Of a stretch of 47,191 bases of DNA, positions 24,414 through 46,637 are shown one piece after another; positions within the stretch are counted from its first letter, which is position 1, and every line of letters begins with the position of its first letter. This DNA comes from an uncultured Actinomycetes bacterium (lineage in GTDB: Bacteria > Actinomycetota > Geothermincolia > Geothermincolales > RBG-13-55-18): assembly GCA_937128055.1 (NCBI GenBank), contig CAKZMC010000180.1, positions 1 through 47,191 on the forward strand, written 5' to 3'. Under the pieces are notes generated by a model. The model had not been told where the DNA came from. It saw nothing but the letters and a program-made list of their open reading frames with translations, and searched no databases. A program made the translations under genes and the position numbers.

Positions 24414-24426
24414 GGGATTCTGGGGA

Positions 24427-24453
24427 TTTGGGGTCAGGATGGATCCTGGCCCC
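24427..24453 (+). repeat. Hairpin with dispersed TTTGGGGTCA motif after metF
   Basis: TTTGGGGTCAGGAT is followed, after GG, by ATCCTGGCCCC, giving an 11-bp stem with one wobble. The same TTTGGGGTCA core occurs at 43185-43196 (reverse strand) and 44869-44878. TGACCCCACCCC also appears at 24509-24520, the same motif on the other strand. Together they bracket about 90 nt and resemble ends of small non-coding elements related to IS200/REP-type transposons. It might also act as a terminator or transcript stabiliser between metF and the next gene, but there is no T-tract. Confidence 0.5.
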
Positions 24454-24553
24454 ACCCCTCTATGGGGCCGTGGTTTGCGGCCTTAGCGGGCAGGGCGAAA
24501 CGCAAAGCATGACCCCACCCCTGCGGGGCATGTACGAACGTGGGTGGTATGGT

Positions 24554-27593: not shown

Positions 27594-28124
27594 ATGGAAA
27601 AAGAGGGTTGCAGTTGCAATCGCAGTTTCGTGCCCCCGGAGGACCTCAGTCCTCTGGAGGATATCGTGGAGAGGTACAGGGGGGAACGTGGAGCCCTCAT
27701 ATCCGTGTTCCACGAGATCCAGCAGACCTACGGGTACCTCGACGAGGGAATAATGGGCGAGCTGGCGAAAAAACTCGGCTATCAGTTGAGCCACCTGTAC
27801 GGGCTGGCGACGTTTTACACCCAGTTCAGGCTGAAGCCGATAGGTAAGCATCTGATACGCATCTGTCACGGTACCGCCTGCCACGTCCGCAATGTGAGGG
27901 AGGTCACCGAGGAGGCGAAGAGGTTCCTGAACATCGTACCGGGGGAGACGACAGAGGACATGTATTTCACTCTGGAGACGGTCAACTGCCTCGGAACCTG
28001 CGCCATTGCGCCCGTTTTGGTGGTGGACGGTGTCTATCATGGCCATATGACCCCCAGCAAGATGAAGAAACTTCTTGAGAAGATGGTAAAAGAGGGAGGT
28101 CGGGAAGCAAGTGGCCAGGATTGA
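27594..28124 (+). CDS. NuoE/HydC-like [2Fe-2S] subunit of formate dehydrogenase complex
   Basis: A thioredoxin-fold [2Fe-2S] protein of 176 aa. The helical N-terminal domain has LISVFHEIQQTYGYL and YGLATFYTQFRL; cluster cysteines are in ICHGTACHVRN and in NCLGTCAIAPVLVVDG. Such subunits pass electrons between the NuoF-like flavoprotein and other clusters in NAD(P)-linked hydrogenases and formate dehydrogenases. An extra CSC near the N-terminus (EGCSCNRSF) is unusual. The ribosome site AAGGAGGT is 9 nt before the ATG, and the gene overlaps the NuoF-like gene by 14 nt. Its order with the next two genes makes it part of a three-subunit formate dehydrogenase. Confidence 0.9.
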   Translation: MEKEGCSCNRSFVPPEDLSPLEDIVERYRGERGALISVFHEIQQTYGYLDEGIMGELAKKLGYQLSHLYGLATFYTQFRLKPIGKHLIRICHGTACHVRNVREVTEEAKRFLNIVPGETTEDMYFTLETVNCLGTCAIAPVLVVDGVYHGHMTPSKMKKLLEKMVKEGGREASGQD

Positions 28125-29970
28125 AACCCCCGCCGACCTGGAGCAGTACAGGCTCCAGTTAAGGGAAAAGTTCGGAAAATACCAGTATGCGGTGTCCGTG
28201 TGTGGCGGGACCGGTTGTCGGGCTTACGATTGTATAAACGTCTTCGAGACCCTTCGTGAGATCATAGACAAGAAGGACATGAGCCATACCGTAAACCTTA
28301 GGCTCACCGGCTGTCAGGGCTTCTGCGAGATGGGCCCCCTTATGTTCATCCACAAAAACGGCATCTTTTACGTCCGGATCTCGCCCGAGGCCGTGGAGAG
28401 AATAGTGGAGAGCTCCATCCTTGGCGACGAAGTGGTCGAGGAGCTGTTGTACAAGAGCCCGGCGGACGGGAGAAGGATAGTCCATCAACAAGAGATCCCC
28501 TTCTACAACAAGCAGAGGAGGTTCCTCCTGGCTATGAACAGGGACATCGATCCCCTCAACATCGATGATTACATCGCCAAGGGCGGATACGGGTCACTGG
28601 CGTGGGCACTGTTCGAGAGTTCTTCGGAGGAGATCATCGACATCATAGAGCGCGCCGGTCTCCGGGGAAGGGGAGGAGCCGGTTTTCCCACGGGCAGGAA
28701 ATGGAGGATCGCGAGGCAAGCGCCATCACCGGACGGGATCAAGTATGTCATTTGCAACGCGGACGAAGGTGACCCTGGTGCCTACATGGACCGGAGCCTT
28801 CTCGAAGGCAACCCTCATCAGGTCATTGAGGGCATGACCATAGGGGCTTATGCCATCGGGGCCAGTGAGGGTTACGTGTATGTGCGTCATGAATACCCGC
28901 TTGCCGTGCACCACCTCCTGGAAGCGCTGGACCAAGCGAGGGAAAAGGGCCTCCTTGGAAAGAACATTTTGGGATCGGGTCTGGATTTCGACATCAAGGT
29001 GAGCGTGGGAGGAGGGGCGTTCGTCTGCGGCGAGGAGACGGGTCTTATCGCCAGCATAGAGGGAAAGAGGGGTATGCCCAGGCCGCGGCCTCCGTATCCC
29101 GCCAACTACGGCCTCTGGGGGAGGCCGACGAACATCAACAACGTTGAGACGTGGCAAAACGTACCCCTCATACTCCAGATGGGCGCGGACGAGTATGCCA
29201 AGATAGGCACCGAGAAGAGCAAGGGGACCAAGATTTTCTCGCTGGTGGGAAAGATCAACAATACCGGGCTGGTAGAGGTTCCCATGGGGATAACCCTGAG
29301 AGAGATCGTTTACGAGATAGGGGGAGGCATCCCCAGGGGCAAGGCCTTCAAGGCCGTCCAGACGGGTGGGCCATCCGGCGGATGTATTCCGGCCCATCTT
29401 CTGGACATCCCCGTGGACTTCGAGCGCCTCCAGGAGGTGGGCTCCATGATGGGTTCCGGAGGCATGATAGTGATGGACGAGAACACCTGCATGGTGGACA
29501 TCGCCCGTTATTTCATGGAGTTCTTGACCCATGAATCCTGTGGCAAGTGCGTTCCCTGCCGGTTGGGCACCAAGAGGATGCTGGAGATACTCACCAAGAT
29601 CTGCGACGGCCAGGGGACCAACGAGAACCTGGAGGCACTGGAGTCTCTGGCCGCGGATATAAAAGCGTCCAGCCTTTGCGCCCTTGGGGGGACATCCCCC
29701 AACCCCGTCCTGACCACCTTGAGGTATTTCCGCGATGAGTACGAGGAGCACATAGTCAACAAGAGATGTCCTGCAGGAATATGCCAGGCGCTGATCACCC
29801 TGCGCATCGACCCGGATACATGTACAGGGTGCGGTGCGTGCTTGAAGATCTGTCCCGTGGAGGCGATAAGTGGGGAGAAAAAACAACCCCATTCCATAGA
29901 CCCCGAGGTCTGCATACGCTGCAAGCTGTGCATCAGCCGTTGCCCCAAAGAGGCCATATACACGGAATGA
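28111..29970 (+). CDS. NuoF/HydB-like NAD(P)-binding flavoprotein subunit of formate dehydrogenase
   Basis: A 619-aa diaphorase subunit. Domains in order: N-terminal thioredoxin-like [2Fe-2S] (CGGTGCRAYDC, GCQGFCEMGP); Nuo51 FMN/NAD domain (GRGGAGFPTGRKW, CNADEGDPGAYMDR, GGGAFVCGEETGL); SLBB; [4Fe-4S] motif ESCGKCVPCRLG; and two C-terminal ferredoxin [4Fe-4S] motifs (CTGCGACLKICPVEAI, CIRCKLCISRCPKEAI). This is the HydB layout of bifurcating hydrogenases and related formate dehydrogenases, so electron bifurcation with ferredoxin is possible but unproven. The start is GTG at 28111 after GGGAGGT. FdhA starts 10 nt after the stop. Confidence 0.93.
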   Translation: MARIETPADLEQYRLQLREKFGKYQYAVSVCGGTGCRAYDCINVFETLREIIDKKDMSHTVNLRLTGCQGFCEMGPLMFIHKNGIFYVRISPEAVERIVESSILGDEVVEELLYKSPADGRRIVHQQEIPFYNKQRRFLLAMNRDIDPLNIDDYIAKGGYGSLAWALFESSSEEIIDIIERAGLRGRGGAGFPTGRKWRIARQAPSPDGIKYVICNADEGDPGAYMDRSLLEGNPHQVIEGMTIGAYAIGASEGYVYVRHEYPLAVHHLLEALDQAREKGLLGKNILGSGLDFDIKVSVGGGAFVCGEETGLIASIEGKRGMPRPRPPYPANYGLWGRPTNINNVETWQNVPLILQMGADEYAKIGTEKSKGTKIFSLVGKINNTGLVEVPMGITLREIVYEIGGGIPRGKAFKAVQTGGPSGGCIPAHLLDIPVDFERLQEVGSMMGSGGMIVMDENTCMVDIARYFMEFLTHESCGKCVPCRLGTKRMLEILTKICDGQGTNENLEALESLAADIKASSLCALGGTSPNPVLTTLRYFRDEYEEHIVNKRCPAGICQALITLRIDPDTCTGCGACLKICPVEAISGEKKQPHSIDPEVCIRCKLCISRCPKEAIYTE

Positions 29971-29980
29971 GGAGGGCGCA

Positions 29981-32710
29981 ATGAAACATATCAGTCTGAC
30001 CATCGACGGCATCGAGGTTATAACCACTCCTGGCCGTACCATCCTCGAAGCGGCGGCAGAGGCCGGAATCAGAATCCCTACCCTGTGCTACGACCCGCGG
30101 CTGGAGCCCTACGGTTCGTGCAGGGTCTGTCTAGTGGAGGTGGAAGGGCAGGGCCGGGGGTTCCTTCCCGCTTGCGCTACCCCGGCCGACGAGGATATGG
30201 TTGTGCGAACCGACACGGAAAAATTGAGGGGGATAAGGCGGACCATCATCGAGTTGCTCCTGTCCGACCATCCCAACGACTGCATGACCTGTGAGAGCGC
30301 CGGAAACTGCGAGCTGCAGGATCTGGCCTACGAGTATGGCGTGAGGAAACCGCGATTTCAGGGCGAACAGCATCACCATGAAGCGATTGTTGATAATCCA
30401 ATTATCGAGCGTGACTACAACAAATGCGTACTCTGCGGACGGTGCGTACGCATCTGCCGCGAAGTGCAGGGGGTGGGGGTATACGATTTCGCCAACCGGG
30501 GCTTCGAGGCCGTCCCGGGCACACCCTATAACCGGCCCCTCACCGAAACCCCCTGCGAGTTCTGCGGGCAGTGCGTCTCCACTTGCCCCACAGGGGCCAT
30601 CGTGTCCATACCTTCCAAGGGGAAGGGGAGGTCATGGCAGGTTCGCAAGGTAAGGACAACCTGTGCCTACTGCGGGTGCGGATGCCAGATAGACCTCCAC
30701 GTGCGCGACGGGAGGATTGTGGATGTCTCCTCACCGCTCATGGTGGGGCCGGGTGAGGGAAACCACTGTGCCAAGGGTCGATACGGTTACGGTTTCGTCC
30801 ACCATTCGGATCGGCTGACCACCCCCCTGGTCAGGAAAGAGGGGGAGCTGGTCCCGGCAACCTGGGAGGAGGCCCTGGGTCTGGTTGCCGACCGAATCTC
30901 AAAGGCGGTGAAAGAACAGGGGCCCGACAGCGTGGCCTTTCTCGCCTCGGCGCGTTGCACCAACGAGGAGAACTACCTTTTCCAGAAATTAGCCCGCGCG
31001 GTGGTCGGCACTAACAACGTGGACCACTGCGCACGTTTATGACACAGCTCTACGGTCGCCGGTCTGGCGACGGTCTTCGGAAGCGGTGCCATGACCAACT
31101 CGTTGGAGGACCTGGAGCAGGCCGCCTGCATCCTGGTGATCGGCTCCAACACGACGGAAGCCCATCCCATTGTGGGATTACGCATTAAGAAGGCTGTCAT
31201 GAAGAACGACTGCAAGCTCATAGTGGCCGAACCACGCCGTATTCGTCTCTGCTATTATGCCGACCAGTGGATCAGGCAGATGCCGGGCACGGACGTGGCG
31301 TTGCTCAACGGGATGATGAACGTGATCCTCTCCGAGGGCCTTGCCGACGAGGAGTTCATCAGGGAACGGACCGAGGGCTTCGAGGAGTTCAAGAAAATAA
31401 TCGAACAGTATCCCCCGGAAAGGGCGACCGAGATCTGCGGCGTGCGCCCCGAGGAGATACGCCGAGCCGCTCGCACTTTCGCTTCCGCGCCCTCGGCGGC
31501 CATAGTTTACGCCATGGGGATCACCCAGCACAGCCACGGGGTGGACAACGTCATCTCCCTGGCCAACCTGGCCATGCTAACCGGTAACGTGGGCAAAGTC
31601 GGCGCGGGCGTCAATCCATTGCGGGGGCAGAACAACGTCCAAGGGGCTTGCGACATGGGTTGCCTGCCCAATGTATTTCCAGGTTATCAGGCTGTCACCG
31701 ACTCCCAGGCAAGGGAGAAGTTCGAAAGGGCGTGGGGTGTGGAGAGGTTACCCGAAACACCCGGGCTCACCCTCATGGAGATGACGGACGCCGCGTCTCG
31801 TGGCGAGGTCGAGGTGCTCTACATCATGGGAGAGAACCCGGTGATCTCCGACCCCGACGTCGCTCACCTCAAGGAGGCATTGGAAGGACTGAACTTCCTG
31901 GTGGTCCAGGACATCTTCCTCACGGAGACGGCGGCCTACGCCGACGTGGTCCTCCCCGCAGCCTCCTTTGCCGAGAAGGAGGGGACCTTCACCAACACCG
32001 ACCGCCGCGTGCAGCGGGTGCGCAAGGCGGTGGAGCCGCCGGGAGAGGCCAGGGAGGATTCCTGGATCATAGCTCAGGTGGCGGCCAGGATGGGCTATAA
32101 TATGGGAGACATATCCGCGCCATCGGTCATGGAGGAGATAGCCGGCCTCACGCCCTCCTATGCGGGTATCTCCTATCGCAGGCTGGAGGAACTCGGGGAA
32201 TTGCGCTGGCCCTGTCCCTCCCCGGATCACCCCGGAACTCCCATTCTCCATGTAGAAAAGTTTACCAGAGGAAAAGGAAAGTTCAGTCCGGTGGAGTACA
32301 GGCCTCCCGCTGAGGTGCCGGATGATGAGTACCCGCTGATCCTGACCACGGGGCGTGTCCTGCTGCATTACCATACGGGTAGCATGACCCGTCGCGTGCA
32401 GGCCCTGCATGAGCTGGACCCGGAGAACCAGGTGTGGGTAAACCCTGCTGACGCAGGGCGACTGGGGATACAGAGCGGCGAGGAGGTCGGAGTGGAATCC
32501 AGGCGGGCAGCCATCAAGGTAAGGGCCAAGGTGACGGAGAGAGTACCTAAAGGCATAGTCTTCATCCCCTTCCACTTCGGCGAGTCGCCCGCCAACGCTT
32601 TGACCAACACGGCGCTGGACCCGGTAGCCAAGATACCGGAGCTGAAGGTGGCGGCGGTGCGCATCATAGCCGGGCCGGACAAGGATAAGCTGTCCTTCGT
32701 GAGGGCCTGA
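29981..32710 (+). CDS. fdhA: Formate dehydrogenase alpha subunit, selenocysteine-containing (UGA read at 31040-31042)
   Basis: Reversible CO2/formate oxidoreductase, first step of the methyl branch. One gene of 909 aa if the in-frame TGA (codon 354) is read as selenocysteine. The N-terminal NuoG-like part has a [2Fe-2S] motif ([12 protein letters not shown]), a His-ligated cluster ([15 protein letters not shown]) and two ferredoxin motifs ([22 protein letters not shown]). A Mo/W-bisPGD domain follows, with [11 protein letters not shown]. The UGA sits in [17 protein letters not shown], the Sec site of FdhH-type enzymes. Subtracting the ~214-aa extension puts it at the Sec140 position of E. coli FdhH. 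A SECIS hairpin follows. The second part (31091-32710) stays in frame and ends with the MPT dinucleotide-binding domain. Annotation as two genes would be wrong. Confidence 0.95.
31040..31080 (+). promoter_or_regulatory. Bacterial SECIS element with its UGA codon
   Basis: TGA (31040-31042) is followed by a hairpin with stem GTCGCC (31055-31060) and GGCGAC (31066-31071) and loop GGTCT (31061-31065). The E. coli fdhF SECIS has the same GGUCU loop at the same distance (nucleotides 22-26 counted from the U of UGA). The U at position 17, bulged in E. coli, is present but can pair with A31070 here. It should bind SelB and direct selenocysteine insertion. selA, selB and selC are not in the window. 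Confidence 0.9.
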
Positions 32711-35385: not shown

Positions 35386-35904
35386 TTGGCAACCGGGAAC
35401 GGCGTTCGCCGCAAGCTGCTGCTGCTGATAGTTCTCTTCGCCTTCTGGATGGTGTTCACCGCCAGCCTGGCATGGCACGAGCTGGTGCTGGGGGCCGTGA
35501 GCTGCGCCCTGGTGGCCGCAATGACCGTTTCCTTGCTGGGGCGGGCCCTTGATCCACGCATCACGCCCGCGGTCCTGCTGCGCCTGCCGGTGTTCATGCT
35601 CCGTCTCACCTGGGAGATCATCAAGGCCAATTACGACGTGGCCAAGATTATCCTGAACCCGAAGCTGCCCATCGACCCGAGGATCGTGGAATACCGCACC
35701 TACCTCCCCGATGACCTTCCACGCACCGTCTTCTCCGATTCCATCACCCTGACCCCGGGGACGGTGACCGTGGAGCTCGAAGGAAACAGGCTCAACGTGC
35801 ACTGCCTCTGCCCCTACCACGAGGAGGGGCTGGCGGGGCTGGAGAAGATGGTGGCGTGGCTCTTCGGAATCAGGAAGGAGGGGGAGGTGACGGCGGATGG
35901 ATAA
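35386..35904 (+). CDS. Na+/H+ antiporter subunit E (MnhE/MbhA-like)
   Basis: The product is 172 aa. Two to three N-terminal transmembrane helices (LLLLIVLFAFWMVFTASL, LVLGAVSCALVAAM) are followed by a soluble C-terminal domain with the family segment SDSITLTPGTVTVELEGN and LNVHCLCP. It belongs to the small-subunit module of Mrp antiporters and membrane-bound hydrogenases. The TTG start at 35386 has GGGAGCTGG upstream. It overlaps the F subunit gene by 8 nt, the first of a chain of overlaps showing a single operon. Confidence 0.9.
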   Translation: MATGNGVRRKLLLLIVLFAFWMVFTASLAWHELVLGAVSCALVAAMTVSLLGRALDPRITPAVLLRLPVFMLRLTWEIIKANYDVAKIILNPKLPIDPRIVEYRTYLPDDLPRTVFSDSITLTPGTVTVELEGNRLNVHCLCPYHEEGLAGLEKMVAWLFGIRKEGEVTADG

Positions 35905-36169
35905 CTTCCTCACCGTCATCGCCATTATCATCGGCCTGAACGCCGCCATCTGCCTCTACCGGGCGGTGGTGGGTCCCACCACCCAGGACCGCCTCCTGGG
36001 AGTCAATATCGTGGGCACCAAGACGCTGGTGGTGGTCGTCCTGGTCACCTTCATCCTGGCCGAGAACTTCTTCCTCGACGTCGCCTTCGTCTACGCGCTG
36101 CTCCTCTTCGTGGTCACCGTGGCCGTCGCCCGTTACCTGGAAGCGGAGGGCTGGAAGGAGGCGGCATGA
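35897..36169 (+). CDS. Na+/H+ antiporter subunit F (MnhF/MbhB-like)
   Basis: A 90-aa protein with three transmembrane helices, including LYRAVVGPTTQDRLLGVNIVGTK, the conserved MnhF loop, and FFLDVAFVYALLLFVVTVAVARYLE. It is a structural subunit of the antiporter module. It overlaps subunit E by 8 nt and subunit G by 4 nt (ATGA). Confidence 0.9.
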   Translation: MDNFLTVIAIIIGLNAAICLYRAVVGPTTQDRLLGVNIVGTKTLVVVVLVTFILAENFFLDVAFVYALLLFVVTVAVARYLEAEGWKEAA

Positions 36170-36501
36170 GCGCGGCCAGGGATATCGTCGCCGGCGCCCT
36201 TTGCTGCATCGGCACTTTCTTCTTTCTCGTGGGGACCACGGGGCTCTTGCGCATGCCGGACGTCTTCACCCGCCTGCATCCCTCCACGAAGTGCGATACC
36301 CTGGGCGCCTGCTCGGTGATCGTGGGCATGGCGGTGTACAGCGGTTGGTCGTGGGAACTGTGCAAGCTGGTCGTCATCGCGTGCTTCCTGCTCCTTTCCA
36401 GCGCCACCTGCGGACATGCCATCGGACGCTCCGCCCTGCGGAGGAACATCCCCTACTGGAGGAGACAAGGAAAGGAGACCGGGGATGGAAACGGCGCTTA
36501 A
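36166..36501 (+). CDS. Na+/H+ antiporter subunit G (MnhG/MbhC-like)
   Basis: A protein of 111 aa with three transmembrane helices. The family motif GTTGLLRMPDVFTRLHPSTKCDTLG (here residues about 22-46) is complete, followed by CKLVVIACFLLLSSATCGHAIGRSAL. It overlaps both neighbours (4 nt with F, 17 nt with the next gene), indicating coupled translation within the operon. Confidence 0.91.
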   Translation: MSAARDIVAGALCCIGTFFFLVGTTGLLRMPDVFTRLHPSTKCDTLGACSVIVGMAVYSGWSWELCKLVVIACFLLLSSATCGHAIGRSALRRNIPYWRRQGKETGDGNGA

Positions 36502-36733
36502 CCTCACCTTTATCGTGCTCCTCGTGGCCACCGCTCTCATGGCGGTATGGGCCAGGGACCTCCTGGCGGCGGTGATCATCTTCTCCGTGTACAGCCTGAT
36601 CATGGCGCTCATGTGGCAGAGGTTGCAGGCACCCGACCTGGCCCTGACGGAGGCGGCGGTGGGGGCGGGGGTGACCACGGTGCTCTTCGTGGTGACCGTC
36701 TTCAAGACGCGGAGGAGGGAGGAGGAAGAATGA
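36485..36733 (+). CDS. DUF4040 subunit (MbhD-like, MrpA C-terminal part)
   Basis: A protein of 82 aa with three hydrophobic helices: NLTFIVLLVATALMAVWA, LLAAVIIFSVYSLIMALMW, and AAVGAGVTTVLFVVTVF after QAPDLALTEA, the DUF4040/MbhD motif. In full MrpA proteins this is part of the C-terminal extension; here it is a separate gene, as in the Pyrococcus mbh operon. The ATG at 36485 fits the short family length better than upstream in-frame starts. It overlaps its neighbours at both ends. Confidence 0.87.
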   Translation: METALNLTFIVLLVATALMAVWARDLLAAVIIFSVYSLIMALMWQRLQAPDLALTEAAVGAGVTTVLFVVTVFKTRRREEEE

Positions 36734-37479
36734 AGAGAGTCCTCTCGCTGTTCTTCATCGCCGCCCTGGGAGTGCTTCTCCTCTATGTGGTGGCCAGCAT
36801 GCCTCCCATGGGGGACCCGCAGACGCCCACCGCCACCCACGTCATCCCCCGCTACCTGGAGCGGGCGGAGGAAGAGACCCACACGGAAAACGTAATCACG
36901 GGGGTTATCCTCAATTACCGCGGCTACGACACCATGGGGGAGGTAACGGTGATCTTCTGCGCCCTGGCCGCCGTGCTGGCCGTGCTGGGCAGGGAGAGGA
37001 GGGGAAGGATCCGTGGTTTCGTGGACCGCTCCCCGGTGCCCTCCTCGACCATCGTGAGAACCATGGTGCGCTTCATGGTGCCCTTCATCATCCTCTTCTC
37101 CGTCTACACCATACTGCACGGTGAGATATCCCCCGGGGGAGGATTCCAGGGTGGCGCCATCATCGGGGGCAGCATGATCATCTTCACCACCGTCTTCGGG
37201 CTTTACGAGTCGTCGCGTCGGATCCCGCAGAAGGTGCGTGCGCCCCTGGAGGGGTCCGCGGTGATCGTCTTCTTTCTCGTGGGCGCGCTGGGATTGGTGG
37301 GAGGGGGGAATTTCCTCACCTACGCCTGGCCGCACGCGGCGCGCGGCCTGCAGCCCGCTCTGGTCACCTGGCTAACCGTCCTGGTGGAGGTGGGCATCGG
37401 CCTGGGAGGGGCCATGGTGCTCATCTCCATCCTCTTCGCCATGATCCGGGAGGAGGAGGAAATTGCGCTTACTGCATAA
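36730..37479 (+). CDS. Fused MbhE-like and MnhB/MbhF-like antiporter subunit
   Basis: The product is 249 aa and carries two units that are usually separate. Residues 1-90 are MbhE-like (end of MrpA): a TM helix, GDPQTPTATHVIPRYLERA, then NYRGYDTMGEVTVIFCALAAV. Residues from about 105 on are MnhB: SSTIVRTMVRFMVPFIILFSVYTILHG, followed by ISPGGGFQGGAIIGGS, the MnhB hallmark. There is no stop or start between them. The ATG overlaps the stop of the MbhD-like gene (ATGA). Such fusions are known in some Mrp-type operons. Confidence 0.87.
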   Translation: MKRVLSLFFIAALGVLLLYVVASMPPMGDPQTPTATHVIPRYLERAEEETHTENVITGVILNYRGYDTMGEVTVIFCALAAVLAVLGRERRGRIRGFVDRSPVPSSTIVRTMVRFMVPFIILFSVYTILHGEISPGGGFQGGAIIGGSMIIFTTVFGLYESSRRIPQKVRAPLEGSAVIVFFLVGALGLVGGGNFLTYAWPHAARGLQPALVTWLTVLVEVGIGLGGAMVLISILFAMIREEEEIALTA

Positions 37480-37858
37480 TTACCATTATGCGGCAGCGAT
37501 GGCGCTTTTCTGCATCGGGCTCTACACCGTCATCGTGCGGCGCAACATCATAAAGAAGCTCATCGGCCTCAACATCATGGAGACCTCGGTGTTCTTCTTC
37601 TACATCTCCCTGGGTTACCTGGACGGGGGCGTGGCACCCATACACGCCGGAAGCGCTGATCCCGCGCGCATGGTCAACCCCATCCCCCAGGCCCTCATCC
37701 TCACCGGCATCGTGGTGGCGCTGAGCGTAACCGCCCTGGCGCTCTCCATGGTCATCCTCCTCTACCGCCAGTACGGCACCCTGGACGTGGACCGCCTCAT
37801 GCGCGAGGAGGAGCCTGCCGCCGAGGGCGCGGCAGGTGAAGGGGAGGGCGGTGCCTGA
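37463..37858 (+). CDS. Na+/H+ antiporter subunit C (MnhC/MbhG, NuoK-like)
   Basis: A protein of 131 aa with three transmembrane helices. The NuoK/MnhC pattern is clear: ALFCIGLYTVIVRRNIIKK, LIGLNIMETSVFFFYIS and PIPQALILTGIVVALSVTALALS, including the conserved Glu in the second helix. A TTG start at 37463 follows GGAGGAGGAAA and overlaps the upstream gene by 17 nt. The C-terminal tail (EEEPAAEGAAGEGEGG) is acidic and low-complexity. The next gene starts at the base after the stop. Confidence 0.9.
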   Translation: MRLLHNYHYAAAMALFCIGLYTVIVRRNIIKKLIGLNIMETSVFFFYISLGYLDGGVAPIHAGSADPARMVNPIPQALILTGIVVALSVTALALSMVILLYRQYGTLDVDRLMREEEPAAEGAAGEGEGGA

Positions 37859-39343
37859 ATGGGAGCCTGGAGGCATTTCCCCATCTTCATGATCACCCTC
37901 CCCCTGCTGGGGGCGGTGCTCATGCCCTTCCTCGGCTACCTGCGCGAGAGGTGGGTGCCCTACGCCGCCCTGCTCCCCCTGGCCGCCTCCACGCTGCTGG
38001 GATTTCTCCTCGTAGGAAGGATCCCGGCGGGAGACCACCTGAGCTATCACCTGGGTGGCTGGGAGCCGCCCTTCGGCATCGAGATACGCGTGGACCACGT
38101 GGGGCTCTTCCTCATGCTGGTGGTCTGTGCCATCACCCTGCTCGCACTGGTCTATTCGCGGCGCTACATAGAGAAGGAAGTGAGCCCGGGGCGCCGCACC
38201 GCCTATTACGTGCTCTACCTGCTCATGTCGGGGGCCATGCTGGGCTTCACGGCCACCGGGGATATATTCAACCTCTTCGTCTTCATGGAGATCCTGGCCC
38301 TCTCCTCCTACGCCCTGGTGGCCATCACCGGCAACCGCAACGCGGTGCGCGCCGCCTTCAAGTACGTCCTTATGGGGGCACCGTCCTCCATCATGGTGCT
38401 CCTGGCCGTCGGGTTCCTTTACTCCGTGACCGGCACCCTGAACATGGCCGACCTGGCATCGCGCATAGCGGAATCCGGGTACACCGAGGTTCTGGTCGTC
38501 TCCTACATCCTCTTCGTGATCGGTTTCGGGGTGAAGGCAGCCCTCTTCCCCCTGCACATGTGGCTGCCCGACGCGCATTCCATCGCCCCCTCACCCATCA
38601 GTGCCCTCCTCTCCGGCCTGCTGGTGGAGGTGTGCGCCTTCGCCCTGGTGCGCATAACCTTCTCCGTCTTCACGCGGAGCGCCACGGACCTGGTGGGCGG
38701 AACGGCGGACGCGGTGGGGGTAGCGGCGGCAGCGGCCGTGCTCTACGGGGGCATCATGGCCATCACGCAGAAGGACCTGAAAGTGATGATCGCCTACTCC
38801 ACGGTGAGCCACATCGGCTACATCTTCCTGGGCATCACCGCCTTCACCGCGGAAGGGCTGACCGGGGCCATGTACCACATGCTTGACCACGGGCTGGCCA
38901 AGGCATGCCTCTTCCTCTGCGCCGGCAATTTCATCTACTTGAAGGGCTACCGCAGGATCGAGGAGCTGCGGGGAGCCTGGCGCCAGATGCCCTGGACATG
39001 CTTCGCCTTCGCCCTGGCTTCCATATCGGTGATCGGCATCCCGCCCACGGCGGGGTTCATCAGCAAGTGGTACCTCATCCTGGGCAATATCCGGGCGGGG
39101 AAATGGCTCTATACCATCGTGCTGCTGAGCGGCAGCATACTGGCGGCGGTATACTGCTTACGTATAATCTATTACATGTTTTTCCAGGCGGGTAAGGAGG
39201 AGGCATGGGAGGACGCGTCGCGAGACGTTCCCCCCGGGATGCTCGTGCCGGTGTGGGCCCTCTCGCTGGGGACCCTGTTTTTCGGCGTCTTCTCCTACCT
39301 CCTGATACCTTCGCTGCTGAAGGCGTCCGCGTACCTGTTGTGA
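37859..39343 (+). CDS. Antiporter-like large subunit 1 (MnhD/MbhH, NuoM/N-related)
   Basis: A protein of 494 aa with about 14 transmembrane helices. It shows the Proton_antipo_M pattern: FNLFVFMEILALSSYALVA (Glu in helix 5), GVKAALFPLHMWLPDAHS (helix 7 Lys), and KDLKVMIAYSTVSHIGYI. In the helix 8 segment, where most relatives and both paralogs in this operon have Lys (SGxxxKxG), this protein has Glu257 (SGLLVEVCAF). It starts at the base after the mnhC stop. Predicted role: cation/proton translocation in the membrane. Confidence 0.9.
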   Translation: MGAWRHFPIFMITLPLLGAVLMPFLGYLRERWVPYAALLPLAASTLLGFLLVGRIPAGDHLSYHLGGWEPPFGIEIRVDHVGLFLMLVVCAITLLALVYSRRYIEKEVSPGRRTAYYVLYLLMSGAMLGFTATGDIFNLFVFMEILALSSYALVAITGNRNAVRAAFKYVLMGAPSSIMVLLAVGFLYSVTGTLNMADLASRIAESGYTEVLVVSYILFVIGFGVKAALFPLHMWLPDAHSIAPSPISALLSGLLVEVCAFALVRITFSVFTRSATDLVGGTADAVGVAAAAAVLYGGIMAITQKDLKVMIAYSTVSHIGYIFLGITAFTAEGLTGAMYHMLDHGLAKACLFLCAGNFIYLKGYRRIEELRGAWRQMPWTCFAFALASISVIGIPPTAGFISKWYLILGNIRAGKWLYTIVLLSGSILAAVYCLRIIYYMFFQAGKEEAWEDASRDVPPGMLVPVWALSLGTLFFGVFSYLLIPSLLKASAYLL

Positions 39344-39361
39344 GTTGGAAGGGGGTAATCG

Positions 39362-40879
39362 ATGCCGGATAAGAGCACTTTTTCGGTGATACCGCTCATA
39401 GTCATCCTTCTGCCCTGGATCTCCCTGCTGGCCATCCTCGCTTTCCCCAAGAAGGCGGAAAGGCTGCGCCTGTGGCTCTGCGCGCTGGGCTCACTCGCGT
39501 CCTTCGGGCTGCTCTTCAGCCTGCTTCCCGGGATCCTGGACGGGAAGACCTACACCATCAAGCTGGCCAGCGTGGTGGAGAGCCTGGAGATGCGCCTCAC
39601 CGTGGACACCTTGGGCTTCTACTTCGCCCTCATACTGGCCTTCCTGTGGATGCTGGCCACCATCTATTCCATAAGCTATATCGACCACAAGCACAACCGC
39701 TTCTTCGCCTTCATGGCCATGTGCGAGTCCTTCATCCTGGGGTGCGCCTTCTCCGCCAACATGTTCACCTACTTCATCTTCTACGAGATGATGACCTTCG
39801 GGTCCTATCCCCTCATCATCCACGAGGAAACCACCATAGCGCGGCGTGCCGGTTACAAGTACCTGGTCTACGCCGTCGCCGCTGGCACCGTGCTCTTCTT
39901 CGCCATCGTGGCCCATTATTTCTGGGGGAACGGCGAGCTCGGCTTCGGCAGCTACGGGGTGCTGAGCCTGGAGTTCGCCAGCCGTGCCGCGCTCACCACC
40001 ATCTTCTTCACCTACCTGGCGGGCTTCGGCGTCAAGGCGGCCATCATGCCGCTGCACGGATGGGTGCCCGACGCCCACCCCGCCGCTCCCTCGCCCGCCA
40101 GCGCCCTCCTCTCCGGCGTCATCCTCAAGGCGGGCGCCTTCGGCATCATCCGGGTGTGCTTCAACGTTTTCGGGACGGACCTCTTGAGGGAGTTGGGAGT
40201 TTACGTGGTGATGGCCGTCCTGGCCTGTATCACCATCGTGGTGGCCTCCGTCTTCGCCCTCACCCAGGACAACCTGAAGCGGCGGCTGGCCTACTCCAGC
40301 ATCGGCCAGGTGTCCTACATCATACTGGGGCTGGCTATGCTGGCACACGATGGCGCCCTGGGGGGCGTGATGCATCTCACCCACCACGCCCTCATGAAGG
40401 GGTGCCTGTTCCTCTGCGCCGGGGTGATACTGGTAAAAACTGGAAAGAAGAACATAAGCGAGATGGCCGGCGTCGGTTACCAGCTACCCATCACCATGAT
40501 CTGCTTCTCCGTGTGCGCCTTGGCCATGATGGGGACGCCGCCCTCGGTGGGCTTCATAACCAAATGGCTGCTGGGAAGCGGGGCGCTGCAGGCCAGCCTC
40601 CCCGTGTACATCATCATTCTCCTGGTAAGCGCGCTCTTGAACGCGGCCTACTTCCTGCCCATCATCTACATCGCCTTCTTCCGCTGGGAGGGCGATGAGG
40701 TGGAAGGGCACGGGGAGACACACCGTCCCAAGCTCGTCTTCGGCAAGGAGGCCGATCACAAGCTGGTGGTGCCCATCGTCATCCTCGCCCTCCTGGTGGT
40801 AGTCGTGGGCATATGGAGCAACGTGACCGGGTTCCCCTATTCGCTGGTGAGCAGGGTGGTGAACGTCATCTTTCCCTGA
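39362..40879 (+). CDS. Antiporter-like large subunit 2 (MnhD/NuoM-related)
   Basis: A protein of 505 aa with about 14 transmembrane helices. Key segments: YFIFYEMMTFGSYPLIIHE (helix 5 Glu), GVKAAIMPLHGWVPDAHPAAPSPAS (helix 7 Lys), SGVILKAGAFGIIR (helix 8 Lys256), and QDNLKRRLAYSSIGQVSYI. It differs clearly from subunit 1, so this is an old duplication and not a recent copy. It lies 18 nt after subunit 1 and 16 nt before subunit 3. Confidence 0.9.
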   Translation: MPDKSTFSVIPLIVILLPWISLLAILAFPKKAERLRLWLCALGSLASFGLLFSLLPGILDGKTYTIKLASVVESLEMRLTVDTLGFYFALILAFLWMLATIYSISYIDHKHNRFFAFMAMCESFILGCAFSANMFTYFIFYEMMTFGSYPLIIHEETTIARRAGYKYLVYAVAAGTVLFFAIVAHYFWGNGELGFGSYGVLSLEFASRAALTTIFFTYLAGFGVKAAIMPLHGWVPDAHPAAPSPASALLSGVILKAGAFGIIRVCFNVFGTDLLRELGVYVVMAVLACITIVVASVFALTQDNLKRRLAYSSIGQVSYIILGLAMLAHDGALGGVMHLTHHALMKGCLFLCAGVILVKTGKKNISEMAGVGYQLPITMICFSVCALAMMGTPPSVGFITKWLLGSGALQASLPVYIIILLVSALLNAAYFLPIIYIAFFRWEGDEVEGHGETHRPKLVFGKEADHKLVVPIVILALLVVVVGIWSNVTGFPYSLVSRVVNVIFP

Positions 40880-40895
40880 GAGGTGAGGCTGCACG

Positions 40896-43040
40896 GTGCA
40901 CGAGGAAGCATTGACCATCCTGGCCTTTTCCATCCTGCCGGCCCTGGCGCTGGTCCTGCCCCTGTTGGGCGCGGCCTGCGCCGCGGCAGCGGGGGAACGC
41001 AGGGCGCGCCTGCGCAACTGGTCGGCGGTGATCGCAAGCGGCGTCACCCTGGCGGTGGCGGCGGCGCTGCTGTCGCGAGTCATAGGGAGCGGCCCGGTCT
41101 ACTTCAACCTGGATTTCATGCGCCTCGGCGAGCGCTTTGTCTGCGGCCTGGAGGTGGACGCGGTGGGGGCCTTCTTCGCCTTCTTCGCCTCCGTGCTCTG
41201 GTTCGCGGCTTGCCTGCACGCCTTCCGCTATATGGACCACGAGCATAAGCGCACGCGCTTCTTCTTCTTCATGCTGCTCACCGAGAGCGCCACCCTAGGG
41301 GTCTTCATGGTGCGCGATTTTTTCAGTCTATACCTTTTCTTCGAGGCCATGGGGCTGCTGGCCTACGTGCTGGTCATCCACTCCGAGACCGGGCGGGCAC
41401 GGGCCGCGGCCGCCAAGTACATAGGCATGACCGTCGTCGGCGGGCTTTTCCTCATTGGGGGAATCTTCCTCTACCTAGGGTACGCGGGAACCACCGCCTT
41501 CCGCCCCCTGGCGGAGAGTGCCTGGCTCACCGGGTCTTTCAAGGTTATCGCCCTACTACTGCTCGTCGCGGGATTCGGGGTGAAGGCGGGCATGGTGCCC
41601 CTCCATATCTGGCTTCCCGACGCTCACCCCGCGGCACCCTCCCCGGCCAGTGCCCTCCTTTCCGGCGTGATGATAAAGGCGGGAGCTTACGGGATCCTGA
41701 GGACGGTGCTCTCCTTCCTGCAATCACCGGCGTCACATGAGGCGGCGGGCGGCGTAGCCGCCGGGCACGCCGCGGAGGGCGCGGCACACGCGGTGGGGGG
41801 GCTTGCGGCCGACGTGCGCATGCTCGGTTTTGCCGTCATCTGGATCGCCGTGGCCACCATGTTCATCGGCATGCTGCTTGCGCTGGTGCAGAGCGACGTC
41901 AAGCGCACCCTGGCCTATTCCAGCGTGAGCCAGATGGGTTATATCCTTTTCGGGGTGGGCTGCCTGGGATACCTGGGCGGCGAGGGCGCCATGGGCATGG
42001 GTGGAAGCCTTTACCATATCATCAACCACGCCCTTTTCAAGGGGTGCTTCTTCCTCGTGGCGGGGTCCATCCTCTTCTGCGCCCACGAGCTGGACATGTT
42101 CAGGCTGGGCGGCCTGTGGAAGCGCATGCCCTTGACCACCATCTTCTGGTGCATAGCCGCCCTGGGCATCATGGGCATCCCCCTGGGCAACGGGTTCGTC
42201 TCCAAGACCCTCCTTCATCACGCCATCCTCGAGTCACACCACCTGGCGGAGGGGGCCCATCTGGCCACGGCGGGCTGGGTCAAGGCGGCGGAAATCATGT
42301 TCATCATCACCAGCGGAGGGACCATAGGCTATATAACCAAGATGACATACTACACCTTCTTCCGCCGTCCCACCCAGGAGCATGCGGCGCATTTGGCGCA
42401 CGTGAAGGAGGCGCCGGGCTGGATGCTCCTGGGCAGCGGGCTGCTCGCGGCGGGGGTTCTCTGCAACGGGCTCTTCCCCGGCCTGCTGTTGGGGAGGCTC
42501 ATCGGCCCCGCGGCGCAGGCCGTTCCCGGGCTGGAGGCGCATTACGTCGAGCACCTGGCGCACACGCCCATCTACCTGTGGTCGAACATAAAGGAGATCT
42601 TCATCCCGCTGGCCATCGGCGCGAGCGTGTTCGCCCTGGGAGCCTGGCCGGACCTGCTCGGGAGGCGGCGGCGGGGACCGAATATCTTTTCCCTGCGCCT
42701 GCCGCGCTGGCTGGGGGTGGATTTCTGGTACCTTAACGGGGCGCGCGGCTCCCTGGCCTTTCTCTTCTGGGGGAGGCGCACCTATGCCCCGGTCAAGGAA
42801 GGCTTCGTGCGGGTTTCCAAGAGGGCTGCGGGAGGAGCGGTCAGTGCGGTAAGGGATACGATCTACCCTTCCCTTACTTCGCGCCCGGTCGCCTGGGTGC
42901 GTGAGCGAGCGTTGCTGGTCTACGGAAACCTGCGCGGGGAATTACTCCCCCGCGTGCGGGAATACCAAGGGGATATAGCGGTGGGGACGTTGGTGATCGC
43001 CGTATCGCTGACCCTTTTCCTCATCATGCGTTTATTATAG
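40896..43040 (+). CDS. Antiporter-like large subunit 3 (MnhA/NuoL-like, 714 aa, with TM-helix-TM tail)
   Basis: A long protein. The core has RDFFSLYLFFEAMGLLAYVLV (helix 5 Glu), GVKAGMVPLHIWLPDAHPAAPSPAS, SGVMIKAGAYGILR (Lys261) and QSDVKRTLAYSSVSQMGYI. An Ala/Gly/His-rich insertion (AAGGVAAGHAAEGAAHAVGG) follows helix 8. The C-terminal ~120 residues hold a transmembrane helix, the motif GVDFWYLNGARG, a long amphipathic basic segment and a last helix ending TLFLIMRLL, like the lateral helix arrangement of NuoL. The GTG start at 40896 follows GAGAGGTGAGG. A protein resembling this tail is encoded at 43208. Confidence 0.88.
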   Translation: MHEEALTILAFSILPALALVLPLLGAACAAAAGERRARLRNWSAVIASGVTLAVAAALLSRVIGSGPVYFNLDFMRLGERFVCGLEVDAVGAFFAFFASVLWFAACLHAFRYMDHEHKRTRFFFFMLLTESATLGVFMVRDFFSLYLFFEAMGLLAYVLVIHSETGRARAAAAKYIGMTVVGGLFLIGGIFLYLGYAGTTAFRPLAESAWLTGSFKVIALLLLVAGFGVKAGMVPLHIWLPDAHPAAPSPASALLSGVMIKAGAYGILRTVLSFLQSPASHEAAGGVAAGHAAEGAAHAVGGLAADVRMLGFAVIWIAVATMFIGMLLALVQSDVKRTLAYSSVSQMGYILFGVGCLGYLGGEGAMGMGGSLYHIINHALFKGCFFLVAGSILFCAHELDMFRLGGLWKRMPLTTIFWCIAALGIMGIPLGNGFVSKTLLHHAILESHHLAEGAHLATAGWVKAAEIMFIITSGGTIGYITKMTYYTFFRRPTQEHAAHLAHVKEAPGWMLLGSGLLAAGVLCNGLFPGLLLGRLIGPAAQAVPGLEAHYVEHLAHTPIYLWSNIKEIFIPLAIGASVFALGAWPDLLGRRRRGPNIFSLRLPRWLGVDFWYLNGARGSLAFLFWGRRTYAPVKEGFVRVSKRAAGGAVSAVRDTIYPSLTSRPVAWVRERALLVYGNLRGELLPRVREYQGDIAVGTLVIAVSLTLFLIMRLL

Positions 43041-43070
43041 GGAGGGGTGGCGAAGATGATGCGGGAAGGA

Positions 43071-43090
43071 GCCGGCTGCGGGGCCGGCTT
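43071..43090 (+). terminator. Hairpin after the antiporter operon, possible terminator
   Basis: GCCGGC-TGCGGG-GCCGGC followed by TT, 30 nt after the stop of large subunit 3. A second small hairpin, AAAGG-CCCC-CTTT, follows at once and ends in TTATTATG. The T-tract is short, so termination is plausible but weak. Confidence 0.5.
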
Positions 43091-43184
43091 AAAGGCCCCC
43101 TTTATTATGCCGGGTCGCATCGGCCATAAGGGGTTCCGGGCGCGCGGCCGCGCAGGATACCCTAGGGGGTATCAAAATTCAAGA

Positions 43185-43196
43185 CCTGACCCCAAA
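43185..43196 (-). repeat. Dispersed TTTGGGGTCAGG motif
   Basis: On the minus strand this reads TTTGGGGTCAGGTCTTGAAT and continues TTTTGATACC. The same TTTGGGGTCA core stands at 24427 and 44869. The GGGGTCAGGTCTTGAATTTT form is widespread in bacterial intergenic regions, near IS200/REP-associated transposon remnants. It directly precedes the GGAGAGG ribosome site of the next gene. Confidence 0.55.
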
Positions 43197-43207
43197 GGAG
43201 AGGTACG

Positions 43208-43627
43208 TTGGCAACGGTGATGAGGTTGGCCTCAAGCGGCGGCCTGGCGGAGGACCTGCTGGCGGCCCTGATCGCGGCGCTGGCGGGGTTGGCGGTCATC
43301 GCCTACGCCGCCGCCTCCGACCTCTTCGAGCTGAAGATATTCAAGTTCGACCCCTTCGCCTTCAAGTATCCCAGGGAGGCGAGAATCGAGTACTGGTACA
43401 CGCGCGCGGCGCGGAGGTTCGAGGCTTTCCTGGCACGGGGAGGGTGGAATTACGCCAAGGCCAAGAAGCAGGCCAAGGTGGCCATGAAGAGGGACTGGAG
43501 GAGGTTGCGCGGGGAAGCGCGCAGGCTTCTCCCCGAGGCCGCGCGACGGCTGAACCGGGACATCGCCCTGGGTGCCCTGGCCATCGCCATCTCGCTGGTG
43601 GCTCTGCTCATCATGAGGCTCACCTGA
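43208..43627 (+). CDS. Membrane protein resembling the C-terminal tail of antiporter subunit 3
   Basis: A protein of 139 aa. It has an N-terminal transmembrane helix (LLAALIAALAGLAVIAYAA), the motif REARIEYWYTRAARRFEAF, a long basic amphipathic helix rich in Lys and Arg, and a final helix IALGALAIAISLVALLIMRLT. The ending and the aromatic DFWY/EYWY motif align with the last ~120 residues of the 714-aa subunit (DIAVGTLVIAVSLTLFLIMRL), which indicates duplication of that tail. The start is TTG at 43208 after GGAGAGG. It may be an extra small subunit or linker of the antiporter complex; no database family was recognised. Confidence 0.75.
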   Translation: MATVMRLASSGGLAEDLLAALIAALAGLAVIAYAAASDLFELKIFKFDPFAFKYPREARIEYWYTRAARRFEAFLARGGWNYAKAKKQAKVAMKRDWRRLRGEARRLLPEAARRLNRDIALGALAIAISLVALLIMRLT

Positions 43628-43686: not shown

Positions 43687-43926
43687 ATGGTAAAGAAGGC
43701 GACGATTCTGCTGATCACGCTGGCCGCCGCCACCTTGCTGCTGGCCGGCGGCATGAACCAGGCCGGGGCCGCGGGAGAAACCTCCGATGACGGAGAGGGA
43801 GGCTCCATCCGGCTCATAGTGACCATCGCCGCCATCTGGCTGGCGATCATGGCCGCGGTGATAACCGTGGTGGTTCTCACGCGGCGGAAAGCGGGGGAGG
43901 AGGATAGGAAGAGCAAGGAGGGGTAG
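43687..43926 (+). CDS. Small membrane protein with signal-like N-terminus
   Basis: A protein of 79 aa. The N-terminal segment KKATILLITLAAATLLLAGG resembles a signal peptide or first helix; an acidic loop (ETSDDGEGG) follows, then a second helix IRLIVTIAAIWLAIMAAVITVVVL and a charged tail RRKAGEEDRKSKEG. It lies 59 nt after the tail-like antiporter protein in the same direction, with GGGGGT upstream. There is no known family. The two-helix layout and position suggest an accessory of the membrane complex, which is inference. Confidence 0.6.
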   Translation: MVKKATILLITLAAATLLLAGGMNQAGAAGETSDDGEGGSIRLIVTIAAIWLAIMAAVITVVVLTRRKAGEEDRKSKEG

Positions 43927-44051
43927 CGGCCTCCGCGTGGCCCTGGAAACGCGCGTGATGGAGTCGCGGGACGGACGCCCTTTTTACCATACGCTCTGTC
44001 GCCCCCGTCCATCGGGGCGCCACGTGACACGGGGGAGGAAAAGGCGAGGAC

Positions 44052-44783
44052 GTGCAGGAGTATATCCACCGCTTCTACCGCCGCTGGATGCAGGCCGCCG
44101 GACTGGTCTCCTTCCGCGTGACCGTCAGGGAGAGCGATCTTCTCATATGGGCAGAGCGCGACTTGAGCGACGAGGCGTGCGCTTCACTGGTGAGACATCG
44201 CGAGGAGCTCGAGGGTTTCATAGCCCTGCAACCCCCTTTCGCCGATACCTTCCTGCCCTACGCGGTTCCCGGGGACGCCCCTGAGGTGGTGCGGATCATG
44301 GCCTCCGCGGGGGAGAGGGTGGGGGTCGGCCCCATGGCGGCGGTGGCGGGAGCGATAGCGGAGGTGGTGGGGAAGGATCTCCTCGCGCATTCCCGGGAGA
44401 TAATGTTGGAGAACGGCGGGGACATATACCTGCGTTCCGAGCGGGACAGGCGCATCGGTGTTTTCGCTGGCGGATCCCCCTTGAGCGGGCGCCTGGCGCT
44501 GGTGATCCCCCCCACTCCCCCGGGCGGCCTGGGTGTATGCACCTCTTCCGCTTCGGTGGGCCCTTCCTACAGCGCGGGCGCTGCGGACGCCGCCCTGGTG
44601 GTTGCGGAGAGCGCCGCCCTGGCCGACGCAGCCGCGACCGCGCTGGGAAATCGTGCCAAGACAACGGAAGATATCGAGGATGCGCTCTCTACCGTCGCGG
44701 CAGTGGAGGGGGTGGTGGGATGCCTGCTCATTATGGGGGAACACCTTGGCGTGAAGGGTAAACTCGCTCTGGAGCACCCGTAG
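44052..44783 (+). CDS. UPF0280 family protein (ApbE-like fold)
   Basis: A protein of 243 aa. Family segments: RFYRRWMQAAGLVSFRVTVRESDLLI, AGAIAEVVGKDLL, MLENGGDIYLRS, LGVCTSSASVGPSYSAGAADAALVV and ALADAAATALGNRAK. UPF0280 proteins are related in fold to the FAD:protein FMN transferase ApbE and occur mainly in methanogens and Wood-Ljungdahl bacteria; their function is not established. The start is GTG at 44052 with GGCGAGG upstream. It may flavinylate or otherwise modify a partner of the pathway, which is speculation. Confidence 0.87.
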   Translation: MQEYIHRFYRRWMQAAGLVSFRVTVRESDLLIWAERDLSDEACASLVRHREELEGFIALQPPFADTFLPYAVPGDAPEVVRIMASAGERVGVGPMAAVAGAIAEVVGKDLLAHSREIMLENGGDIYLRSERDRRIGVFAGGSPLSGRLALVIPPTPPGGLGVCTSSASVGPSYSAGAADAALVVAESAALADAAATALGNRAKTTEDIEDALSTVAAVEGVVGCLLIMGEHLGVKGKLALEHP

Positions 44784-45065
44784 GAGCCCAAGTCAACATC
44801 CGGGGTCAGGCCCCGTCTGTCGCCTTTTATAGGACCAAGGGGGACGCTCCGCCCCTCCCCAGACATACTTTGGGGTCAAACCGCGTTTATGTCTGAGAGG
44901 GGTCGTTCCTGGGGATGGAGTGCGTCTCGGCCCTCTGGACGGGCCTTCGCCGCATCCATCCCCCGCAAGCGAGAGACCCCTCCTTCTTCCGGACCGGGAC
45001 GCCGTGCAGTGGTCTCGCTCCGCAGGCTGCGCTGCGACCAACTCGGCCGTTCCCGGGCAAGTCGG
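44784..45065. repeat. Intergenic region with GGGGTCA motifs and a short repeat unit
   Basis: About 280 bases without a gene. GGGGTCAGGCCCC stands near 44802-44814 and TTTGGGGTCA at 44869-44878, enclosing about 70 nt. The segment 44989-45065 is the short form of the repeat that follows, and matches bases 1-77 at the left window edge. Long open frames on the minus strand span this and the next repeat but only reflect the repeat units. Confidence 0.75.
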
Positions 45066-45476
45066 GTGGAGATCCCCCCTTCTTCCGGCCCGGAGCCTTG
45101 GGGTAACGGTCTCGCTCGGCGCCACCTGCCTCGCTCGAAAGGAGAAACGCCCGCAGAGGCGCCCTCGCTGCGACCGACCCCATAGTTCTCCGGGCAAGTC
45201 GGGTGGAGATCCCCTCTTCTTCCGGCCCGGAGCCTTGGGGTAACGGTCTCGCTCGGCGCCACCTGCCTCGCTTAAAAGAAGGAACGCCTGGAAAGGCGCC
45301 CTCGCTGCGACCGACCCCATAGTTCTCCGGGCAAGTCGGGTGGAGATCCCTCCTTCTTCCGGCCCGGAGCCTTGGGGTAACGGTCTCGCTCGGCGCCACC
45401 TGCCTCGCTTAAAAGAAAAAACGCCCGCAGAGGCGCCCTCGCTGCGAACGACCCGTCCGTTCTCCGGGCAAGTCTG
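45066..45476. repeat. Three tandem copies of a 137-bp repeat
   Basis: Units begin at 45066, 45203 and 45340, each exactly 137 bp; a fourth start at 45477 breaks off after about 20 bases. Each unit runs GTGGAGATCCC, CTTCTTCCGGCCCGGAGC, GGTAACGGTCTCGCTCGG, GGCGCC, a variable middle, then GGCGCCCTCGCTGCGA and TTCTCCGGGCAAG. The arms GGTCTCGCTCGGCGCC and GGCGCCCTCGCTGCGACC are imperfect inverted repeats around a ~35-nt variable middle, so each unit can fold into a long hairpin. The middle differs between copies (TCGAAAGGAGAAACG, TTAAAAGAAGGAACG, TTAAAAGAAAAAACG), while the stems are nearly unchanged. Confidence 0.88.

Positions 45477-46637
<1,161 letters not shown>

Follow-up and report, generated by a model that had tools for sequence, protein, structure and literature searches.

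A three-large-subunit operon of Geothermincolia that probably encodes a stand-alone Group 3 Mrp antiporter

The stretch of DNA that we have analysed, here called the window, is a contig of 47,191 nucleotides (CAKZMC010000180.1) from an uncultured Actinomycetes bacterium of the class Geothermincolia, family RBG-13-55-18. Our analysis is concerned with an operon of Mrp-type antiporter genes that is located at positions 35386 to 43627 of the window; its genes and features, in which TM stands for a transmembrane helix, are the following:

35386..35904, + strand: MrpE/MnhE, 172 amino acids, TTG start (Pfam PF01899, 4.8e-33)
35897..36169, + strand: MrpF, 90 amino acids (Pfam PF04066, 4.9e-14)
36166..36501, + strand: MrpG/MnhG, 111 amino acids (Pfam PF03334, 2.4e-26; TIGR01300 above cut-off)
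36473..36733, + strand: MbhD-like subunit, part of the MrpA C-terminal domain, start codon uncertain (PF13244, 3.8e-24)
36730..37479, + strand: fusion of MbhE and MnhB in one open reading frame, 249 amino acids (PF20501, 4.9e-09; PF04039, 6.5e-24)
37463..37858, + strand: MrpC/NuoK-like subunit, 131 amino acids (Pfam PF00420, Oxidored_q2, 1.1e-25)
37859..39343, + strand: D1, antiporter-type large subunit, MrpD/MbhH/MbsH-like, 494 amino acids (PF00361, 4.7e-65; residue table; tree)
39362..40879, + strand: D2, second antiporter-type large subunit, 505 amino acids (PF00361, 1.1e-54; residue table; tree)
40896..43040, + strand: D3, third antiporter-type large subunit, 714 amino acids, GTG start (PF00361, 1e-59)
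43080..43099, + strand: terminator-like stem after D3, 6 GC pairs (pattern scan, weak)
43208..43627, + strand: lateral-helix protein of 139 amino acids, TM-amphipathic helix-TM (BLASTP to the D3 C-terminus, alignment, distribution)

The names D1, D2 and D3 refer to the Proton_antipo_M (PF00361) proteins of 494, 505 and 714 amino acids, which are the only PF00361 proteins of the genome (2.70 Mb, 99% complete); the Pfam matches of the E, F, G, B-type and C subunits are all above the curated cut-offs. From mnhE to D3, no more than 18 bases separate adjacent genes, where these do not overlap. According to Pfam and NCBIfam, the operon represents all seven Mrp functions or domains, but there is no fused MrpA, its C-terminal domain being split here into MbhD and MbhE. 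The gene order that the original prediction had noted from the letters alone, E-F-G-MbhD-(MbhE+MnhB)-C-D, is confirmed, with every gene present on the + strand, as are the two extra large subunits and the TM-helix-TM protein that follow; the same prediction had seen no redox partner in the operon, and indeed neither a hydrogenase nor NuoH, a ferredoxin or any further Mbh redox gene is located in the cluster. This gene arrangement is kept across the Geothermincolia loci.

By our own count, the three-large-subunit operon occurs in 26 of the 31 class genomes, including one that is 62% complete and whose D3 is fragmented; the named relatives of D3 belong to “Candidatus Solincola” and other Actinomycetota, at 73-83% identity, and to “Candidatus Geothermincola”, at 60-61%. 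Elsewhere, four large subunits are found in Coriobacteriia and some other groups, and three or more in Clostridia. Operons that lack MrpA, that have only MrpD, at times more than one copy of it, and whose gene order is irregular have been described as Group 3 Mrp (PMC8415708, PMC5703873); by gene content, the present operon is a member of this group, and its subunit composition and setting are already described in the literature. Groups 1 and 2 have been rejected, since the genes are separate instead of forming a fused MrpA and D3 falls outside MrpA/NuoL in the tree.

The closest published counterpart is the acetogen metagenome-assembled genome Unc8 (NPL-UPA2), where MrpEFGBBBCD, MrpDD, Rnf and a Na+ A-ATPase were reported in 2018 (PMC6305446): by subunit names, not by sequence, both systems have E, F, G, three B-type, C and three D-type subunits, and both are set beside a Wood-Ljungdahl pathway, Rnf and a Na+-type ATPase, but our operon has a fusion of two of its three B-type units, contiguous D genes and, in addition, a separate lateral-helix gene. 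The stand-alone Group 3 Mrp of P. furiosus, mrpEFGBB'CD, which uses Na+ as the coupling ion (PMC8415708), shares the order E-F-G-B-type-C-D, the lack of MrpA and the lack of an energy-input module, but has one large subunit in place of three and, in the published subunit table, no lateral-helix subunit. The membrane arm of the Pyrococcus MBS complex (MbsA-H and H') is similar in that MbsE, too, is a fusion (MbhE+MbhF), D1 is like MbsH, and D3 has the architecture of MbsH' with its lateral helix; it differs in that no MbsM-type anchor or redox arm is found in our genome and that D2 is an extra large subunit. Group 1 Mrp (MrpA-G of Bacillus and Anoxybacillus) has the same functional domains and mostly equal key residues, but in our operon D2 and D3 replace the N-terminal part of a fused MrpA, MbhD and MbhE correspond to its split C-terminal part, and D3 is placed apart from MrpA in the tree. 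Lastly, the four-large-subunit Mrp operons of Coriobacteriia/Anaerosomatales (L074-L096) share the order E-F-G-MbhD-B-C-D1-D2-D3, but they have an extra D2-type subunit and a much longer D3 tail, and no separate lateral-helix gene has been seen in them.

Our search for a redox arm covers PF00146, PF00361 and PF00374. PF00146, the family of the NuoH/MbhM/EchB anchor, has matches in 11 of 14 control genomes, and in none of the 15 genomes of the family or the 18 of the order. Among the 15 family genomes, we have therefore found no Ech, Mbh, Mbs or complex I to which the operon could belong; the statement that the organism is without Ech stands, while the suggestion of a ferredoxin-driven complex encoded at another place, with the operon as its ion-pumping half, is contradicted by the same counts and by the restriction of PF00361 to the operon. 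Only two [NiFe] large subunits are found in the genome, neither of them of membrane group 4: one, on contig C87, is of the NiFeSe type (NF033181, 719.9 bits, cut-off 600), and the other, on contig C183, is Vhu/Mvh-like and scores below the VhuA cut-off. Around the related operons (86 loci, some of them with short flanks), no NuoH, NuoCD, HyfG or NiFe subunit is located within 10 kb, and NuoH is absent altogether in half of the 30 distant operon-bearing genomes. Complex I has been rejected because NuoH is not found in the genome, and membership in MBH, MBS or Ech because the genome has no NuoH-like anchor and the operon no [NiFe]-like large and small subunits.

The original prediction had also described an acetogen without Rnf, which does not hold: a complete rnfCDGEAB operon is located on contig C99 of the genome (L049), where rnfC (TIGR01945, 536.9 bits against a cut-off of 246) and rnfD (284 against 207) score above the cut-off, rnfE and rnfA are recognised by PF02508, rnfG is assigned by its position and an SGAT flavin motif, and rnfB is last in order. 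Two adjacent PF02508 matches, of the Rnf type, occur in each of the 15 family genomes; this family is also matched in 29 of the 30 distant operon-bearing genomes and, by our own count, in 24 of the 26 operon-bearing genomes of the class. Both findings that had been named beforehand as speaking against the prediction have thus been made, namely that there is a known Mrp group in which MrpD occurs more than once and that Rnf is already present. The genome further encodes rotary ATPase ring subunits of 77 amino acids (contig C174) and in a 171-residue frame with two hairpins (contig C102; the latter read in relatives), both with a pattern (a glutamine plus Glu-Thr, or PGTQ...YQG...VET) that resembles the presumed ligand positions of Na+-binding rings.

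Several arrangements of rnf genes have been observed alongside. In two Bacillota loci (L126:3752-13093, where the rnf operon is complete as CDGEAB, and L109:2833-12388), a D2-D3 pair without other Mrp genes comes after the rnf operon, on its strand, a possible Rnf-antiporter unit. On contig C87 of our genome (G000, locus L050, 5659-11369), the NiFeSe-type [NiFe] hydrogenase and a small membrane protein are followed by a second RnfC and RnfD; since the genome has a single RnfE/RnfA pair, this locus has the look of a hydrogenase-RnfCD module. In L101 and L105, it is the Mrp operons that RnfC/RnfD pairs adjoin.

The comparison of the large subunits is based on the residues of TM5, TM7, TM8 and TM12, which are a general expectation for such subunits and not a part of the published Group 3 definition. 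In the Geothermincolia loci, the TM5 glutamate, the TM7 lysine and the TM12 lysine are invariant in D1, D2 and D3, and the TM8 lysine is invariant in D2 and D3, D2 retaining every key glutamate and lysine. In D1, the centre of TM8 is occupied by Glu257 in place of lysine; among 16 Geothermincolia proteins, this position holds glutamate in 14 and alanine in 2, and in all 54 relatives from outside the class it holds lysine. The central TM8 lysine is said to connect two half-channels (PMC7419157). In the D2-type proteins of other operons, the position is alanine in 21 of 76, an example being the extra D2 of operons with four large subunits, where the Coriobacteriia/Anaerosomatales operons differ from ours; as read from sequence, more than one lineage has lost the TM8 lysine from one subunit of the row, and the subunit concerned can differ. 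A subunit without this lysine would carry fewer protons or none, or would act in coupling. The loss in D1 looks like a new, lineage-specific variation.

The best PDB match of D1 is MbhH (6cfw_H, 2.5e-70), and D1 and D2 are placed in the tree among MrpD, MbhH and MbsH (support 0.91), the grouping of both with MbsH reaching only 0.82. D3 forms a separate clade (0.996), which is close to MbsH', HyfB and NuoM (0.87), and is not grouped with MrpA/NuoL; a common origin of D3 and MbsH' is not claimed, the tree support being 0.0. The PDB matches of D3 are 6cfw_H, MrpA and MbsH', and its C-terminal extension, TM15-lateral helix-TM16, has an architecture like that of NuoL, the N-terminal part of MrpA and MbsH'. 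A Foldseek search with an AlphaFold2 (AF2) model of D3 returns NuoL, MrpA, MbhH and MbsH', from a weak model (mean predicted local distance difference test, pLDDT, of 54.6, below 50 in the lateral-helix region) that is unfit for judging helix length. The D3 tail is about 50 residues long in an operon with two large subunits (L120), about 84-134 in three-subunit Actinomycetota and mostly 244-372 where there are four; in the four-subunit Coriobacteriia (L074-L096, D3 of 842-968 amino acids), the interval between the last two TMs is mostly two to three times that of three-subunit operons. A rule by which tail length tracks the number of large subunits has been rejected: L111 and L113 break it, and the crude hydropathy measure fails on some sequences.

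The candidate Na+-path sites have been taken from the literature, including Asp38 of MrpF (PMC9568556), and have been putatively assigned by motif in MrpF, MbhD, MbhE and MnhB. Asp31 of MrpF, kept in 61 of 62 loci, would correspond to the Asp38-MrpF site; Glu60 of MbhD is kept in 64 of 64 loci, and in the MbhE+MnhB fusion D67 and E71 are kept in 51 of 51 and Phe139 of the B domain, the putative gating residue, in 52 of 52.

The protein of 139 amino acids has no Pfam or NCBIfam match; it aligns to the last 140 residues of D3 (BLASTP E 1e-10), with approximately 35 gap positions that nearly all fall in the lateral-helix stretch, so that it looks, from this alignment, like a shortened duplicate (paralogue) of the TM15-lateral helix-TM16 unit of D3. 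Its gene begins 167 bases past D3, and because this gap includes the terminator-like stem at 43080-43099, it may be transcribed apart from the operon; the pattern scan found 14 such sites against 7.8 expected by chance, which is weak evidence. The gene is kept downstream of the operon in 14 of the 15 family genomes, the exception being a 62%-complete genome, and in both genomes of the sister family f2; it has not been found in family f3 or elsewhere in the class, the weak matches there being located in D3-sized frames. In one family member (G009, contigs C8 and C25), the set D1-D2-D3-lateral helix occurs in two copies. The same TM-helix-TM architecture is found in MbhI, which the original prediction had counted among the hydrogenase and ferredoxin modules, but which is a TM-lateral helix-TM subunit (PMC7684303). 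A profile of the 139-residue family against PDB chains has detected no homology with MbhI, and Foldseek has returned no match for the AF2 model of the protein, a model (pLDDT 64, pTM 0.27) that is too weak to speak against such homology. The separate lateral-helix gene looks like a second variation that is new and specific to the lineage.

Taken from sequence, it is quite probable that the operon encodes a stand-alone Group 3 Mrp (CPA3) Na+(K+)/H+ antiporter, which would act in secondary transport beside Rnf and an ATPase of Na+-type pattern; the observations behind this reading are the gene content, order and conservation, the key residues, the presence of Rnf and the lack of a NuoH-type redox arm, and together with the three large subunits they support the earlier description of a stand-alone Mrp of unusual size. 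We infer that all parts of the operon assemble into one complex, as well as its ion specificity, its direction of transport and its link to Rnf. MrpE, MrpF and MrpG, MbhD, the MbhE/MnhB fusion and MrpC would form the path of Na+ (or K+), with D1, D2 and D3 as a row of proton half-channels alongside it, protons passing through D2 and D3 and perhaps D1; the terminal lateral helix of D3 would span the row and hold it together, as in NuoL, MrpA and MbsH', and the 139-residue protein would be a second, shorter lateral helix. Rnf would oxidise ferredoxin and build an ion gradient, on which the rotary ATPases with Na+-pattern rings would draw, while Mrp would swap Na+ for H+ and thereby adjust the internal pH and the Na+/H+ ratio; for the Mrp of M. 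acetivorans, exchange of the Na+ gradient made by Rnf has likewise been put forward as a hypothesis (PMC3160891).

Some points weigh against this picture of an antiporter working beside Rnf: D1 has no lysine at the centre of TM8, so that proton transport by all of the large subunits is not required; two members of the order, G058 (99% complete) and G060 (91%), keep the operon with no PF02508 match, so the link to Rnf is not obligatory; the co-occurrence of Rnf and Mrp may reflect an anaerobic lifestyle only; and the ring pattern of the ATPases, for which we rely on presumed ligand positions, is a lead and not a test. G058 and G060 also leave room for an antiporter that serves pH or Na+ homeostasis alone, for example at high pH or salt, with no part in energy conservation. 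This is the usual role of Mrp (PMC5703873), and several distant relatives bear the names of alkaliphiles, e.g. Natronincola and Alkaliphilus; however, the operon occurs in most of the class, adjoins a Wood-Ljungdahl cluster in the window and is mostly accompanied by Rnf and, in the family, by ATPases of Na+-type pattern, with which a bioenergetic role fits as well. We hold the restriction to homeostasis to be rather unlikely, while its weight overlaps that of the antiporter beside Rnf.

The two remaining explanations assign a redox arm to the operon. That it encodes the membrane half of a complex of the MBH/MBS/Ech type driven by ferredoxin, the redox arm lying elsewhere in the genome, agrees with the gene order of the Mbh/Mbs antiporter half, with the nearness of D1 to MbhH and MbsH and with the loose association of D3 with MbsH', HyfB and NuoM, but the anchor is absent from all 18 genomes of the order, the two [NiFe] large subunits are of other types, and in the sister family f4 a divergent NuoH-like gene is paired with an adjacent PF00361 gene of its own on another contig than the Mrp operon; we regard this explanation as extremely improbable. 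Rnf itself could be the redox arm, physically coupled to the antiporter with the 139-residue protein or the D3 helix as connector: Rnf co-occurs nearly always, the two Bacillota loci place a D2-D3 pair behind an rnf operon, and RnfC or RnfD genes adjoin five further Mrp operons. Yet in the window Rnf does not adjoin the operon, the operon occurs without Rnf in G058 and G060, and no Rnf structure is known to contain Mrp parts, so that we consider such coupling very doubtful. Equally doubtful is its extended form, in which the Mrp operon and Rnf are a physical and functional unit in these Wood-Ljungdahl bacteria, the ion current of the ferredoxin:NAD pump is geared through the three-channel antiporter, the lateral-helix protein is the connector and D1, on losing its TM8 lysine, has turned from a proton channel into a coupling or Na+-handling element.

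The surroundings of the operon in the window are as follows. Upstream lies a Wood-Ljungdahl cluster with fhs, acsV, folD, acsD, cooS, acsB, acsC, metV-metF and acsE, which includes, between metF and a radical SAM gene, an open reading frame of 433 amino acids without Pfam match (24305-25606); a formate dehydrogenase of NuoE/NuoF/FdhA type is located at 27594-32710. Downstream, at 43687-44783, are a signal/TM protein of 79 amino acids and a PRK04334-family protein, presumably UPF0280, which are found at the same place, before ligA, in most Geothermincolia loci; between the PRK04334 gene and ligA, at 45049-45484, a 137-base unit is repeated 3.2 times with 92% matches.

For the biology of this lineage, our findings would mean that the candidate for its ferredoxin-driven pump is Rnf and not a hidden Mbh-like complex, with Mrp as an exchanger beside it. 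What remains of interest are the two lineage-specific variations, the lateral-helix gene and the loss of the TM8 lysine from D1. The operon is a further member of a natural series in which stand-alone antiporters have one, three or four large subunits; the subunit from which the central lysine appears to be lost varies within the series, being D1 in our operon and the extra D2 in Coriobacteriia. Such natural variants would make the H+/Na+ stoichiometry of Mrp and of complex I-type arms testable by comparison.

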